NCBI GenBank assembly: GCA_028711945.1
Contig: JAQTRG010000011.1
Coordinates: 1 to 11,493, forward strand
Length of the DNA stretch: 11,493 nt
Direction: 5' to 3'
Source of the DNA: Minisyncoccota bacterium
GTDB taxonomy: Bacteria > Patescibacteriota > Minisyncoccia > Minisyncoccales > Minisyncoccaceae
A program made the position numbers and the translations under genes. The notes below the pieces were generated by a model that worked only from the letters and a program-made list of their open reading frames with translations, had not been told where the DNA came from and ran no database searches. This document shows, piece after piece, positions 5,429 through 11,493 of this stretch (positions within the stretch are counted from its first letter, which is position 1; the number at the start of each line of letters is the position of its first letter).

Positions 5429-5500
5429 GGCCCCATCGTCTAACGGTTAGGACGCCAGATTTTCAATCTGATAATCAGGGTTCGATTCCCTGTGGGGTCA
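5429..5500 (+). tRNA. tRNA-Glu (anticodon UUC)
   Basis: A full cloverleaf. The acceptor GGCCCCA (5429-5435) pairs with TGGGGTC (5493-5499) with one G-U pair. The D arm is GTCTAACGGTTAGGAC. The anticodon loop TTTTCAA carries TTC at 5462-5464, and the T arm CAGGG-TTCGATT-CCCTG spans 5476-5492. The discriminator is A (5500) and CCA is not encoded, so it must be added after transcription. The first anticodon-stem pair is a C-A mismatch. The next gene's ATG begins only 3 bases after the discriminator. Confidence 0.95.
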
Positions 5501-5503
5501 CAA

Positions 5504-7066
5504 ATGGAAGAAAAATATTATCTAAAAATTGGAAGGGCTTCTGATCTTGAGGATAAGAAGGAAAGAAAGCTCTATCGTTTCTTAGAAATGTTAACTGGCC
5601 TCTTGAGTTTGTTAATCTTATTCTTGGCTGGTTTTTTGTCTTTCAAACTGCCTATTTTTATTGCTTTTTTCATAATCATATATGATATCTATTGGTTGCT
5701 CCGAACAATATATTTTGCTTTCTATCTTAAGGCGGGGTATTCACAAATGAAAAATAACGAGAAAGAAGATTGGTTAAAAAAGATTGAAGAACTGGGAAAG
5801 CCTAAAAATGGATTAAACATTGATTCGTGGAAAGATGTATATCATTTAATTGTCTTGCCAATGTATAAGGAGTCAATGGAAGTAGTTGATCCAGCTTTTG
5901 AGCATCTATTGAAAACAGATTATCCCAAAGAAAAGATGATGGTTGTTTTGGCTTGTGAAGAAGCTGACAAAGAAAATGCAGAAATTATTTCTAAAAAGAT
6001 TCAAGAAAAATATGGAGATAAGTTTTTCAAGTTTTTAGTGACAATGCATCCAAAGGGGATAGTTGGAGAATTAGCTGGGCATGGGTCTAATGATGCTTGG
6101 GCAACAAAACAAGTCAAAGAATTATTAATAGATACTTTGAACATTCCTTACGAGAATATTATTGTTTCATCTTTTGATATTGATGCTTATGTTTATCCTA
6201 AGTATTTTAGTCGTTTAGCTTATTTATATTTAACAGTTGATAATCCATTAAGGAACAGCTATCAACCCATTCCTTTATACTTAAATAATGTTTGGCAATC
6301 TCCTCCATTATCAAGAATATTTTCTTTTTCTTCTACTTTTTGGCATACAATGAATCAAGAGAGGCCAGAAAAACTAGTGACATTTTCTTCTCACTCAATG
6401 CCATTTAAAGCTTTGAATGATGTTGGATTCAAACAAGTTAATGTTGTTTCAGATGATTCAAGAATATTCTGGCAATGTTTTTTCTATTACGATGGAGATT
6501 ACAAAGTAGAGCCAATGTATTATCCTGTTTCAATGGATGCCAATTGCGCAGAAACATTTTTGAAAACAATGGGTAATGTTTATAAACAGCAAAAAAGGTG
6601 GGCATATGGAGTAGGAGAAGTTCCTTATTTTTTGTTCGCTTGCTTGAAGAACAAAAAGATTCAATTGAAGAAAAAGATATTAATGGGATTTGATTTGATT
6701 GAAGGACATGTTTCGTGGGCAGTTTCTTCTATTTTAATTTTTCTTTTAGGCTGGTTGCCAATATATTTTGGAGGAGGTGATTTTGCTCAAACTCTAGTTT
6801 CGTATAATCTTCCCAAGGTAACAAGCATGATATTAACTGTAACAATGTGTAGCTTGATTATTTCTGTTTGGTTGAGTACAATTTTGCTTCCACCGAAGCC
6901 AGTTAATTACGGAAGATTTAAATACATATTAATGGCTCTAGAATGGATTCTTATTCCATTTGTAATGATGTTTTTTAGTGCTTTGCCAGCTTTGCATGCT
7001 CAGATGCACTGGCTGTTCGGTAGATATATGGGGTTTTGGGTAACACCAAAGGTAAGAAAGAGTTGA
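5504..7066 (+). CDS. Membrane-embedded family 2 (processive-type) glycosyltransferase
   Basis: A 520-aa polytopic enzyme. Two membrane helices (about residues 34-80) precede a cytoplasmic GT-A domain, and about four helices follow from residue 395. Catalytic-type motifs are visible: FDID (residues 224-227, the DxD metal/nucleotide-sugar site), SDDSRIFW (Asp317/Asp318, the likely catalytic acid region) and QQKRW (362-366, the QxxRW signature of processive GT2 enzymes such as cellulose and hyaluronan synthases). It would transfer sugars from a nucleotide-sugar to a growing surface glycan, but product and sugar are not predictable. The start is ATG 5504. The longer GTG start at 5492 lies inside tRNA-Glu and is rejected. 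With only CAA between tRNA and ATG, there is no room for a Shine-Dalgarno sequence. The stop is 1 bp from the convergent recG stop. Confidence 0.85.
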   Translation: MEEKYYLKIGRASDLEDKKERKLYRFLEMLTGLLSLLILFLAGFLSFKLPIFIAFFIIIYDIYWLLRTIYFAFYLKAGYSQMKNNEKEDWLKKIEELGKPKNGLNIDSWKDVYHLIVLPMYKESMEVVDPAFEHLLKTDYPKEKMMVVLACEEADKENAEIISKKIQEKYGDKFFKFLVTMHPKGIVGELAGHGSNDAWATKQVKELLIDTLNIPYENIIVSSFDIDAYVYPKYFSRLAYLYLTVDNPLRNSYQPIPLYLNNVWQSPPLSRIFSFSSTFWHTMNQERPEKLVTFSSHSMPFKALNDVGFKQVNVVSDDSRIFWQCFFYYDGDYKVEPMYYPVSMDANCAETFLKTMGNVYKQQKRWAYGVGEVPYFLFACLKNKKIQLKKKILMGFDLIEGHVSWAVSSILIFLLGWLPIYFGGGDFAQTLVSYNLPKVTSMILTVTMCSLIISVWLSTILLPPKPVNYGRFKYILMALEWILIPFVMMFFSALPALHAQMHWLFGRYMGFWVTPKVRKS

Positions 7067-7067
7067 T

Positions 7068-9188
7068 TTATTCTAAGTGAACCTTTTCTTCAAAAGATTC
7101 TACCCTTGCTTTTAAGCTGGGGTATTTTTCTAAGCTAGGGCTAGATTTTATTATCTCTTCTGCTGATTCTTTGGCTTTAGCAATAGCTTTTGTGTCTCCC
7201 AAGAAAGACATAGCGAAATCAGGAAGGCCCCATTGCCTTACCCCAAAGAAATCTCCAGGACCTCTTAATCTAAGATCTACTTCTGATAGTTTAAAACCAC
7301 TATCATACTTAATCATTGCTTTTAATCTTTTGTCTGTCTTTTGGCTTTTTGAATCTGTTAAAAGAAAACAATATGATTGATGCTCTGCTCTGCCAACTCT
7401 ACCTCTGAATTGATGGAGTTGAGACAGACCAAATCTATCAGACCCCTCAATCATCATTACAGTAGCATTAGGAATATCAATTCCAACCTCAACTACTGAA
7501 GTTGAAACAAGAATATCAAATTTCTTGCTTCTGAAATCTTTCATTGTTTTGTCTTTTTCTTTGCTGGTCATTTTCCCATGAAGCATGGCAATTTTTAAAT
7601 TAGGAAATACATTTTTAGAAAGTTTTTCGTATTCTTCTTTCACAGTTTTTAATTCTAATGTACTATCTTCTTCTATTTCTATCCTTGGACAGATAACAAA
7701 AATTTGTCTTCCGCTCTTTGCTTCTTTTTCTATAAAATTATATGTTTCTAATCTTTTTTCTTCAGTAATAATTTCAGTGATTATTTTTTTTCTTCCCTTA
7801 GGCATTTCTTCAATTATTGAAAGATTTAAATCTCCCCAAATAGTTAAAGCTAAGGTTCTTGGTATCGGGGTTGCAGTCATTGAGAGTAAATGAGGTATTT
7901 TTTCTTTATTTTTGGGAGACAATGATGCGCGTTGTTTCACTCCGAATCGGTGTTGCTCATCAACAATGATTAATCCTAGACTTTTGAATTTAACCTTATC
8001 TTCGTTTTTTGTTTTTCTTTTATTCATGGGGGATATTAAAGCATGAGTACCGATGAGAATATCAATTTCTCCTTTTTCAGTTTTTTCTAATAATCTTTTT
8101 CTAGAAATTTCAATAGTATCTGTTTTTAGTTTTTTAGAATAATATTTGTCTTCTTTTCCAGTCAAAAGCCCTATATTTATATTAAAGTCCTTTAATAGGT
8201 TGAAAATTGTCTTAAAGTGCTGTTTTACCAATATCTCGGTTGGAGCCATTAGAACGACTTGATTTTTGGCTTTAACAGCATTTATAGAGGCTATAGCCGA
8301 AACTACGGTCTTTCCAGACCCCACATCTCCTTGTAAAAGCCTGTTCATGGGGATGCCTTGCTCCATGTCTTTAAGTATCTGCCATGTGCATTTTCTTTGG
8401 TCGTCAGTGAGATTAAATGGAAGAGATTCTATTAGTCTTTTGACAATATCTAGATTGATGGGAATAGCTGGAGCTTTTTCTTTTCTTAATTCAAGTCTCT
8501 TTTTTAAATTAAAAAGACAGATAAGAAAGAGCTGTTCAAAAGAAAGTCTTTCTTTTGCTCTTTCAGCATTTTCTAATTTATCAGGAAAGTGTATTTGATA
8601 GAGAGATTCTTTTAAAGATAGTAAGCCATGTTTATCAATTATTTCTTGAGGTAGGGTTTCAGGAAAATTATCTTTGATGGATAGTAATATCGGTTTAATG
8701 ATATGTCTTAACCATCTTGATGTTATTCCTTTTGTTTCTGAATATATGGGAGCGATTCTTCCTAGGTGAGTAGTATCTTTTAAGGATATTTTTTCAAGAG
8801 TAGGAGAAACTAATTGTAGCCTTCCATTTTTTATCGTTGTCTTTCCAGCAAGAATTAATTCTTCATCTTTTTTTAGATAATTAATTAAATATGGCTGATT
8901 GAACCATACAACTTGAATAGCAGCACTGTCATCTTGAATAATAGCCTTAGTTATAGAAATTTTTTTAGCCCAAGCTCTGTCTTGTTCAATTCCTAATACT
9001 TTTCCTTGTATGCAAACATCTTCATTGTTTTTAATGTCTCTTATTTTTTGTATCTTGCTATAATCCCTGTATTCTCTGGGGAAATAATATAAAAGATCAC
9101 TAAGAACTGATATTCCTAGTTTTTTTAATCTTTTCCTGTGTGCATCTCCAATATGAGGAATTTCCCCAACAGGTGTTTTTAGATTCAT
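7068..9188 (-). CDS. recG: RecG, ATP-dependent DNA helicase
   Basis: 706 aa, a normal RecG length. The N-terminal helical region holds the helix-hairpin-like LKKLGISVLSDLLYYFPREY. The wedge/OB domain (about residues 50-140) is followed by superfamily 2 helicase motifs: GDVGSGKT (287-294, Lys293), MAPTEILVKQH, DEQHRFG (410-416), SMTATPIPRTL, and STSVVEVGID to QFRGRVGR (593-600). The C-terminal TRG region reads LRLRGPGDFFGVRQWG, where many RecGs have GTRQSG. RecG remodels stalled forks and Holliday junctions. The ATG at 9188 is used because the 28 preceding in-frame codons belong to tRNA-Arg, and the protein's conserved N-terminus begins here. The A of this ATG is also the last A of the tRNA's encoded CCA, so recG is probably expressed from the tRNA transcript. 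Confidence 0.96.
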   Translation of the reverse strand: MNLKTPVGEIPHIGDAHRKRLKKLGISVLSDLLYYFPREYRDYSKIQKIRDIKNNEDVCIQGKVLGIEQDRAWAKKISITKAIIQDDSAAIQVVWFNQPYLINYLKKDEELILAGKTTIKNGRLQLVSPTLEKISLKDTTHLGRIAPIYSETKGITSRWLRHIIKPILLSIKDNFPETLPQEIIDKHGLLSLKESLYQIHFPDKLENAERAKERLSFEQLFLICLFNLKKRLELRKEKAPAIPINLDIVKRLIESLPFNLTDDQRKCTWQILKDMEQGIPMNRLLQGDVGSGKTVVSAIASINAVKAKNQVVLMAPTEILVKQHFKTIFNLLKDFNINIGLLTGKEDKYYSKKLKTDTIEISRKRLLEKTEKGEIDILIGTHALISPMNKRKTKNEDKVKFKSLGLIIVDEQHRFGVKQRASLSPKNKEKIPHLLSMTATPIPRTLALTIWGDLNLSIIEEMPKGRKKIITEIITEEKRLETYNFIEKEAKSGRQIFVICPRIEIEEDSTLELKTVKEEYEKLSKNVFPNLKIAMLHGKMTSKEKDKTMKDFRSKKFDILVSTSVVEVGIDIPNATVMMIEGSDRFGLSQLHQFRGRVGRAEHQSYCFLLTDSKSQKTDKRLKAMIKYDSGFKLSEVDLRLRGPGDFFGVRQWGLPDFAMSFLGDTKAIAKAKESAEEIIKSSPSLEKYPSLKARVESFEEKVHLE

Positions 9189-9262
9189 GGTGCCCTCGAG
9201 AGGAGTCGAACCTCTGTCGCAAGCTCCGCAAGCTAGTATTCTATCCATTGAACTACGAGGGC
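9188..9262 (-). tRNA. tRNA-Arg (anticodon GCG), CCA encoded
   Basis: The acceptor GCCCTCG (9262-9256) pairs fully with CGAGGGC (9198-9192). The discriminator A is at 9191 and CCA is encoded at 9190-9188. The D stem is GTTC/GAAT, and the T arm is AGAGG-TTCGACT-CCTCT (9215-9199). The anticodon loop TTGCGGA puts GCG at 9229-9227, reading CGC/CGU as arginine. The anticodon stem CTAGC/GCTTG has one U-U mismatch and the variable loop is 4 nt. Bacteria normally read these codons with an ACG (inosine) tRNA, so G34 is unusual. The final A of CCA is the first base of recG. Confidence 0.92.
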
Positions 9263-9270
9263 CTATGTAC

Positions 9271-9298
9271 ATACTATCAAAATTTGACTCAAAATCAA
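9271..9298 (-). promoter_or_regulatory. Possible promoter of tRNA-Arg/recG
   Basis: On the minus strand, TTGATT (9298-9293), a 16-bp spacer and TAGTAT (9276-9271) end 8 bases before the tRNA 5' end, so transcription would start almost at the tRNA. A perfect TATAAT lies further upstream at 9311-9306 inside an inverted repeat (CTAATT 9303-9308 / AATTAG 9317-9322), but it has only a poor -35. Either could serve. Each assignment is moderate because the boxes are imperfect. Confidence 0.45.
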
Positions 9299-9358: not shown

Positions 9359-9390
9359 ACAAAAAAGCCTTAATAGGCTCTTTTTGTATG
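9359..9390 (-). terminator. Rho-independent terminator after tRNA-Ser(UGA)
   Basis: On the minus strand, AGCCT (9379-9375), loop ATTA, AGGCT (9370-9366), then six or more T residues, beginning about 10 bases after the tRNA 3' end. The upstream A-run can pair with the T-run, so the structure may also work on the plus strand. It separates tRNA-Ser from the tRNA-Arg/recG unit. Confidence 0.75.
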
Positions 9391-9475
9391 AGGAGGGAGA
9401 GGGATTCGAACCCTCGGTGAGTTGCCCCACAATAGTTTTCAAGACTATCCCTTTCAACCGCTCAGGCATCCCTCC
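9391..9475 (-). tRNA. tRNA-Ser (anticodon UGA)
   Basis: A class II tRNA. The acceptor GGAGGGA (9475-9469) pairs perfectly with TCCCTCC (9398-9392). The anticodon stem ATAGT/ACTAT encloses CTTGAAA with TGA at 9441-9439. A long variable arm (TGTGGGGCAACTCACC) is followed by the T arm GAGGG-TTCGAAT-CCCTC (9415-9399). CCA is not encoded, and the base in the discriminator position is T (9391), where bacterial tRNA-Ser usually has G. A near-consensus promoter lies just upstream and a terminator just downstream, so it is a single-gene transcription unit. Confidence 0.94.
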
Positions 9476-9486
9476 GCGATAGGGAA

Positions 9487-9515
9487 ATAATATATAAAAA
9501 AGAGAGCATTGTCAA
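9487..9515 (-). promoter_or_regulatory. Near-consensus promoter of tRNA-Ser(UGA)
   Basis: On the minus strand, a perfect TTGACA (9515-9510), a 17-bp spacer and TATTAT (9492-9487). The -10 ends 11 bases before the tRNA 5' end, predicting a start near 9480. The -35 begins 15 bases after the stop codon of the HD-domain gene. Confidence 0.85.
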
Positions 9516-11411: not shown

Positions 11412-11493
11412 TGGCGGAGAGGAAGGGATTCGAACCCACGAGTCGCTTTCGCAACTAACACCTTAGCAGGGTGCCCCATTCGACCACTCTGGC
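11412..11493 (-). tRNA. tRNA-Ser (anticodon GCU), 5' end cut by window edge
   Basis: A class II tRNA missing about its first nine bases. The acceptor 3' strand CCTCTCC (11422-11416), discriminator G (11415) and encoded CCA (11414-11412) are present. The T arm carries GGTTCGAATCC. The long variable arm reads TAGTTGCGAAAGCGACTCG, and the anticodon stem GCACC/GGTGT encloses CTGCTAA with GCT at 11467-11465, reading AGC/AGU. The missing 5' strand should read GGAGAGG just beyond the window. Confidence 0.92.

Follow-up and report, generated by a model that had tools for sequence, protein, structure and literature searches.

In the tRNA punctuation of mitochondria, an open reading frame (ORF) lies directly behind a tRNA whose excision sets the 5′ end of the message, which is translated without a leader, and the CCA of the tRNA is added later. 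Maturation of the Escherichia coli type starts from an encoded CCA and proceeds through a downstream cut by RNase E followed by exonuclease trimming. Another situation is described in the available text of two reports (PMC3848588, PMC4681348), where Propionibacterium acnes is said to lack tRNase Z, cuts in the tRNA precursors of this species and of Streptomyces coelicolor are mapped between the two Cs of CCA, repair of the CCA by a nucleotidyltransferase is proposed, and many leaderless mRNAs are noted in both bacteria. The present work deals with a junction between tRNA-Arg(GCG) and recG in a stretch of 11,493 nucleotides, hereafter the window, from a Minisyncoccota bacterium (GenBank assembly GCA_028711945.1, contig JAQTRG010000011.1). 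As judged from its sequence and that of related loci, we consider it slightly on the probable side that the two genes share a transcript, from which excision of the tRNA would make a near-leaderless recG mRNA.

The tRNA-Arg/recG junction

The minus strand of the window reads ...CTCGAGGGC-A-CC-ATGAATCTA at the junction, which corresponds to the discriminator (A9191), C74 and C75 (9190 and 9189) and A76 (9188), the latter doubling as the first base of the recG ATG (9188-9186). This sharing of one A by CCA and start codon, already pointed out in the initial annotation, is exact and was confirmed by the sequence, ARAGORN, Rfam (64 bits for the tRNA model on 9191-9262) and the RecG match. The acceptor and T stems of the tRNA form all of their pairs (12/12), and the recG product of 706 amino acids matches the NCBIfam equivalog over its full length with 823 bits (cut-off 718). 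No terminator-like site was found in the window between the tRNA and recG, which are separated by a gap of 2 nucleotides.

Relatives of recG came from a search of 60 related genomes, of which 58 matched at E ≤ 0.001, and of 196 genomes of the order, of which 177 matched at E ≤ 1e-100. To these were added 36 loci on named GTDB contigs, titled for instance Candidatus Paceibacterota or Nealsonbacteria, and 80 stretches taken by region, the last being a part of all recG matches in the order. Altogether they provide 138 distinct recG 5′ ends, including three from outside Patescibacteria (L091-L093), which are excluded from the tree and from the counts over 135. Start codons were chosen by rule as the ATG nearest to aligned residue 1, and in 108 of the 138 loci an ATG falls exactly on it, in agreement with the earlier claim that the conserved N-terminus of RecG begins at the junction.

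Recurrence of the junction in related genomes

A same-strand tRNA-Arg(GCG) was found at most 500 nucleotides upstream of recG in 84 of the 138 loci (84/135 in Patescibacteria), another tRNA in 4, and no tRNA in 47 despite at least 500 nucleotides of sequence, too little sequence being present in 3. The gap between discriminator and ATG is 0-5 nucleotides, here called tight, in 34 of the 84 pairs, with 18 pairs at exactly 1 nucleotide and 8 at 2, and the remaining gaps range from 8 to 480 nucleotides. Those of 1 nucleotide, which mostly read A73-C-AUG, make up 18 of the 54 gaps of 0-18 nucleotides (binomial 1.5e-10, or 6e-8 when computed on 46 parsimony events), although neither value fully removes relatedness and the uniform null is crude. 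In the tight cases, all 7 acceptor pairs are formed in 31, 6 in one and only 3 in two, where the 5′ end of the tRNA was probably called one base early.

Such equivalent junctions in many genomes argue against an assembly error at this point, which had been named as a possible refutation, and the idea of a linkage between the tRNA and recG holds. As to whether the overlap is conserved, tight abutment is found in relatives but the exact sharing of the A in only 3 of the 84 pairs (L033, which is the window, L080 and L130); a fourth CCATG (L101) was rejected, as a stop follows and it is not the recG start. The shared A itself is thus incidental, whereas the abutment of tRNA-Arg and recG is recurrent. 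In a RecG tree of 135 rows, built with FastTree only, at least 28 changes of the tight state and 14 of the gap of 1 nucleotide are counted, so the junction is labile and has been reached repeatedly. Outside the order, the class contributes 26 best-match loci, of which 13 have a same-strand tRNA-Arg(GCG) within 500 nucleotides and 6 have this tRNA within 15 nucleotides of the aligned first residue. In one further locus (L133), tRNA-Leu(UAA) lies 1 nucleotide before recG. The matches listed for open-licence PMC texts, a scope that does not cover subscription papers, include no report of a tRNA abutting an ORF in Patescibacteria.

CCA encoding and 3′ processing enzymes

The 361 tRNAs of the fetched loci, from which four of the window's own genome on suspect contigs (C62 and C75) were removed, encode C74 in 350 cases, C75 in 98 and A76 in 173, and the complete CCA in 71. 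In the own bin (G000), the CCA is encoded by 5 of 34 distinct tRNAs (6 of 35 rows, among them one truncated duplicate, once the suspect contigs are removed). PF01743, the family of CCA-adding enzymes and poly(A) polymerases, occurs in this bin and in 28 of the 30 genomes searched. These data point indirectly to a CCA added after transcription, though the tRNA-Arg of the window encodes its own. The initial annotation had supposed that the encoded CCA is kept, so that a transcript gives either a tRNA or an mRNA, a dilemma now weakened; a cut 5′ of the CCA followed by its re-addition, then regarded as the exception, is more likely the rule, because the CCA is mostly unencoded and PF01743 is present. 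The tRNA-Arg reading CGN codons carries the anticodon GCG, and tRNA-Arg(ACG) was found in 0 of the 361.

Canonical RNase Z was dropped as the cutting enzyme, since TIGR02651 was over its cut-off in none of 30 genomes (27 weak matches), compared with 9 of 14 controls. By eye, five weak matches (L240, L242, L243, L245 and L246) resemble other metallo-beta-lactamase proteins, and the only one scanned (L243) gave beta-CASP matches below the cut-offs. A strong partial match in the own bin (contig C78) was treated as contamination, its neighbouring genes resembling archaeal TFB and TrmB by eye. RNase E/G was likewise over cut-off in 0 of 30 genomes, and in 6 of 14 controls.

Three contigs of the own bin, C62 (L119), C75 (L120) and C78 (L244), carry archaeal-looking genes and are likely contaminants; C75 matches TIGR01578 and may be archaeal, and C62 is suspect by eye. 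The tRNAs of C62 and C75 are still within the 5/34 count, the survey of tRNA-ORF junctions that includes the tRNA-Glu pair of the window, the gap distribution of tRNAs other than tRNA-Arg, and the sets of 405 ORFs and 65 gap-1 sites considered below.

Translation signals and proposed mechanism

Among 405 ORFs with at least 60 nucleotides upstream free of other long ORFs, the motif TANNNT occurs exactly 6 nucleotides before the ATG 56 times, other spacings giving 8 to 32, and Shine-Dalgarno (SD) cores at -15 to -5 occur in 26, with a small peak at spacings of 7-9. Leaderless translation thus appears, from these signatures, to be used elsewhere in the lineage. SD-like motifs are found in 2 of 50 recG loci without tRNA. 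Ahead of the tRNA in 33 tight relatives, TANNNT is frequent at distances of 8-12 nucleotides, with 25 occurrences at these five positions versus 4 at 0-7.

Starting from the observed anatomy and recurrence of the junction, the pattern of C74, the gene content and the leaderless signature, the following course can be proposed. tRNA-Arg(GCG) and recG would be transcribed together; RNase P would form the 5′ end of the tRNA, and a nuclease other than a recognisable RNase Z or RNase E/G would cut after A73 or C74, the CCA-adding enzyme finishing the tRNA. The downstream fragment would be the recG mRNA, with its AUG 0-2 nucleotides from the 5′ end, and would presumably be translated as a leaderless or near-leaderless message. 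A cut between C74 and C75 would yield an mRNA beginning with AUG at junctions with a gap of 1 nucleotide, and with C-AUG in the window, whereas cutting after A73 would give messages that start with C-AUG or CC-AUG. Since one cut would free both molecules, tRNA excision and formation of the recG message would be a single event, and since a cut after A73 or C74 is followed by completion of the CCA, the conflict between tRNA and mRNA would be largely avoided, one molecule giving both. A cut at C74/C75 would also account for a C74 that is nearly always encoded and a C75 and A76 that are not. In the window, the overlap of an encoded CCA with the ATG would then be a by-product of compaction.

Other tRNA-ORF junctions

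The window holds a second junction, in which a glycosyltransferase-like gene has its ATG 3 nucleotides behind the end of tRNA-Glu(UUC), and counterparts of this pair have gaps of 2, 2, 7 and 10 nucleotides (L065, L086, L063 and L068, respectively). A T-arm followed by C-ATG gave 55 matches in 34 of 60 genomes, and 6 matches in a reversed control. All the fetched loci contain 65 gap-1 sites with a confirmed tRNA, and at 41 of them starts a reading frame that is 100 amino acids or longer or runs off the end. recG starts account for 19 of the 65, and 22 of the other 46 have a frame of at least 100 amino acids, compared with 9.3% of CATG sites generally when only the first ATG in the frame is counted and 19.5% when any ATG is. 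At nine open-frame sites, tRNA-Val(GAC) is followed at gap 1 by what appears to be a single RluA-type gene (L290, L293, L269, L288, L265, L285, L282, L208 and L272); the one member tested is just over the cut-off of TIGR00005. Single gap-1 cases involve a peptide deformylase and a ClpB-like protein. A junction of the own bin between tRNA-Gly(CCC) and a MiaB-like gene, with a gap of 1 nucleotide, was set aside, as it lies on the possibly archaeal C75.

A wider reading would extend this punctuation to further genes of these Patescibacteria, with a cut just after the almost always encoded C74 by neither RNase Z nor RNase E/G and an enzymatic CCA, so that genes with AUG at position 75 (recG behind tRNA-Arg, the RluA-family synthase behind tRNA-Val, the glycosyltransferase-like gene behind tRNA-Glu, and others) would obtain exactly leaderless mRNAs, their expression being tied to tRNA output. 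This we put forward tentatively, as a possibility that is more doubtful than probable.

Alternative explanations

Several observations weigh against excision as the source of the recG message. The junction does not stay tight in the family to which the window belongs, where gaps run from 1 to 351 nucleotides or the tRNA is absent. In another locus (L160; 1744-3906, minus strand), a 5′ remnant of recG lies 1 nucleotide behind tRNA-Arg and an intact recG about 1.8 kb downstream, the junction having undergone a duplication or insertion; the intact gene lies away from the tRNA, and the junction is therefore dispensable there. tRNAs other than tRNA-Arg(GCG) show only a mild excess at gaps of 1-3 nucleotides (8/110), the RNase Z cut-off was also missed by 5 of the 14 control genomes, so that absence of the enzyme is not proven, and the retention of C74 may have a different cause, such as a need of RNase P or another enzyme. 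Moreover, internal initiation at an SD within the acceptor strand may occur, given an SD core inside this strand in 12 of the 34 tight loci and a looser SD motif in 21 of 53 recG loci with a gap of at most 15 nucleotides. The AUG of the window itself is preceded at 5 nucleotides by a GAGGG of the acceptor strand. These SD-like motifs would suit plain compaction without coupling, in which recG is served by a promoter inside the tRNA or initiated on uncut RNA with that GAGGG as SD, and which also fits the labile gaps and the uncoupled gene of L160. However, the SD core is missing at -15 to -4 in 22 of the 34 tight loci and scarce in the lineage, TANNNT occurs 5-8 nucleotides before the ATG in only 2 of the 53 loci, and the acceptor stem would sequester the SD, which is paired in the predicted fold, although this fold is no better than shuffles (z -0.21) and hence uninformative. 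Compaction of this kind seems rather unlikely to us.

Mutual exclusion, with 3′ processing cutting in recG or ruining its 5′ end and RecG made only from transcripts that escape tRNA maturation, agrees with the fully encoded CCA of the window and the A it has in common with the ATG. A 3′-exonuclease route would require a downstream cut, and the available text of PMC12641178 reports that bacteria of the candidate phyla radiation (CPR) retain PNPase and RNase J. Against it stand the minority of tRNAs with an encoded CCA, the gap-1 junctions, which have no CCA to keep, the presence of a CCA-adding-type enzyme and the failure of RNase E/G, the downstream cutter of E. coli, to exceed its cut-off in any of the 30 genomes, all of which make it unlikely. 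An N-terminal piece of RecG read from the tRNA sequence has in its favour the frame of the window, open to in-frame ATGs at 9272 and in the tRNA D-arm (ORF of 734 amino acids), but 25 of the 34 tight relatives lack an upstream in-frame ATG, 15 of the 34 have an in-frame stop within the tRNA, and the conserved N-terminus begins at the junction Met, leaving such a start very improbable. A chance abutment or assembly error of no wider meaning is just as hard to credit: the rarity of the exact CCA/ATG sharing would favour it, whereas the tight joining in 34 of the 84 loci, the peak at a gap of 1 nucleotide and the occurrence of the pair in other orders of the class argue strongly for the contrary.

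Other features of the window

Features of the window around the junction
Feature	Position	Strand	Basis
tRNA-Arg(GCG), encoded CCA 9190-9188, discriminator A9191	9188..9262	-	ARAGORN and Rfam
recG, ATG 9188-9186, A common with tRNA A76	7068..9188	-	NCBIfam
Possible weak promoter TTGATT-16-TAGTAT, ending 8 nucleotides 5′ of tRNA-Arg	9271..9298	-	By eye; promoter scan did not report it
Promoter-like TTGACA-17-TATTAT (11/12), upstream of tRNA-Ser	9487..9515	-	Consensus match only
tRNA-Ser(UGA), upstream of tRNA-Arg, same strand	9390..9475	-	ARAGORN and Rfam
tRNA-Glu(UUC), then CAA and ATG (5504) of next gene	5429..5503	+	ARAGORN and Rfam
Glycosyltransferase-like gene, starting 3 nucleotides after tRNA-Glu	5504..7066	+	Weak PgaC/IcaA match below cut-off

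Transcription of tRNA-Arg and recG could also begin at the promoter-like site ahead of tRNA-Ser, and the terminator-like site reported by the scan between the two tRNAs is for the plus strand only. A partial tRNA match of 29.5 bits (11415-11493, minus strand) runs into the window end.

Comparison with known systems

The proposed excision of tRNA-Arg resembles the C74/C75 cleavage of P. acnes and S. coelicolor, as far as the available text of the reports cited above goes, in the lack of tRNase Z reported for P. acnes, the proposed CCA repair and the leaderless mRNAs. In contrast to those bacteria, where no ORF is described as beginning at the cut, one would do so here, and the CCA is mostly unencoded but C74 encoded, the cut being predicted rather than mapped. 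With maturation of the E. coli type the window shares an encoded CCA, which is exceptional in this genome, and RNase E/G over cut-off is found in 0 of 30 genomes. As in bacterial leaderless mRNAs made from promoters, the recG message would begin with its AUG or close to it and need no SD, but its 5′ end would arise by tRNA excision and not be the transcription start. If true, bacteria would make leaderless mRNAs by tRNA excision as well as by starting transcription at the AUG, which raises the question of the tRNA 3′ maturation enzyme in a large, mostly uncultured lineage with neither RNase Z nor RNase E/G over cut-off, and what is predicted is precise to the single nucleotide. The best reading of tRNA-Arg/recG is therefore by analogy, as a putative bacterial counterpart of mitochondrial tRNA punctuation: unlike in mitochondria, where RNase Z makes the 3′ cut, TIGR02651 is over cut-off in none of the 30 genomes, but in both cases an ORF starts within a few nucleotides of the 3′ end of a same-strand tRNA, and in both, as proposed here, excision would define the 5′ end of an mRNA translated without a leader and the CCA would be added later.
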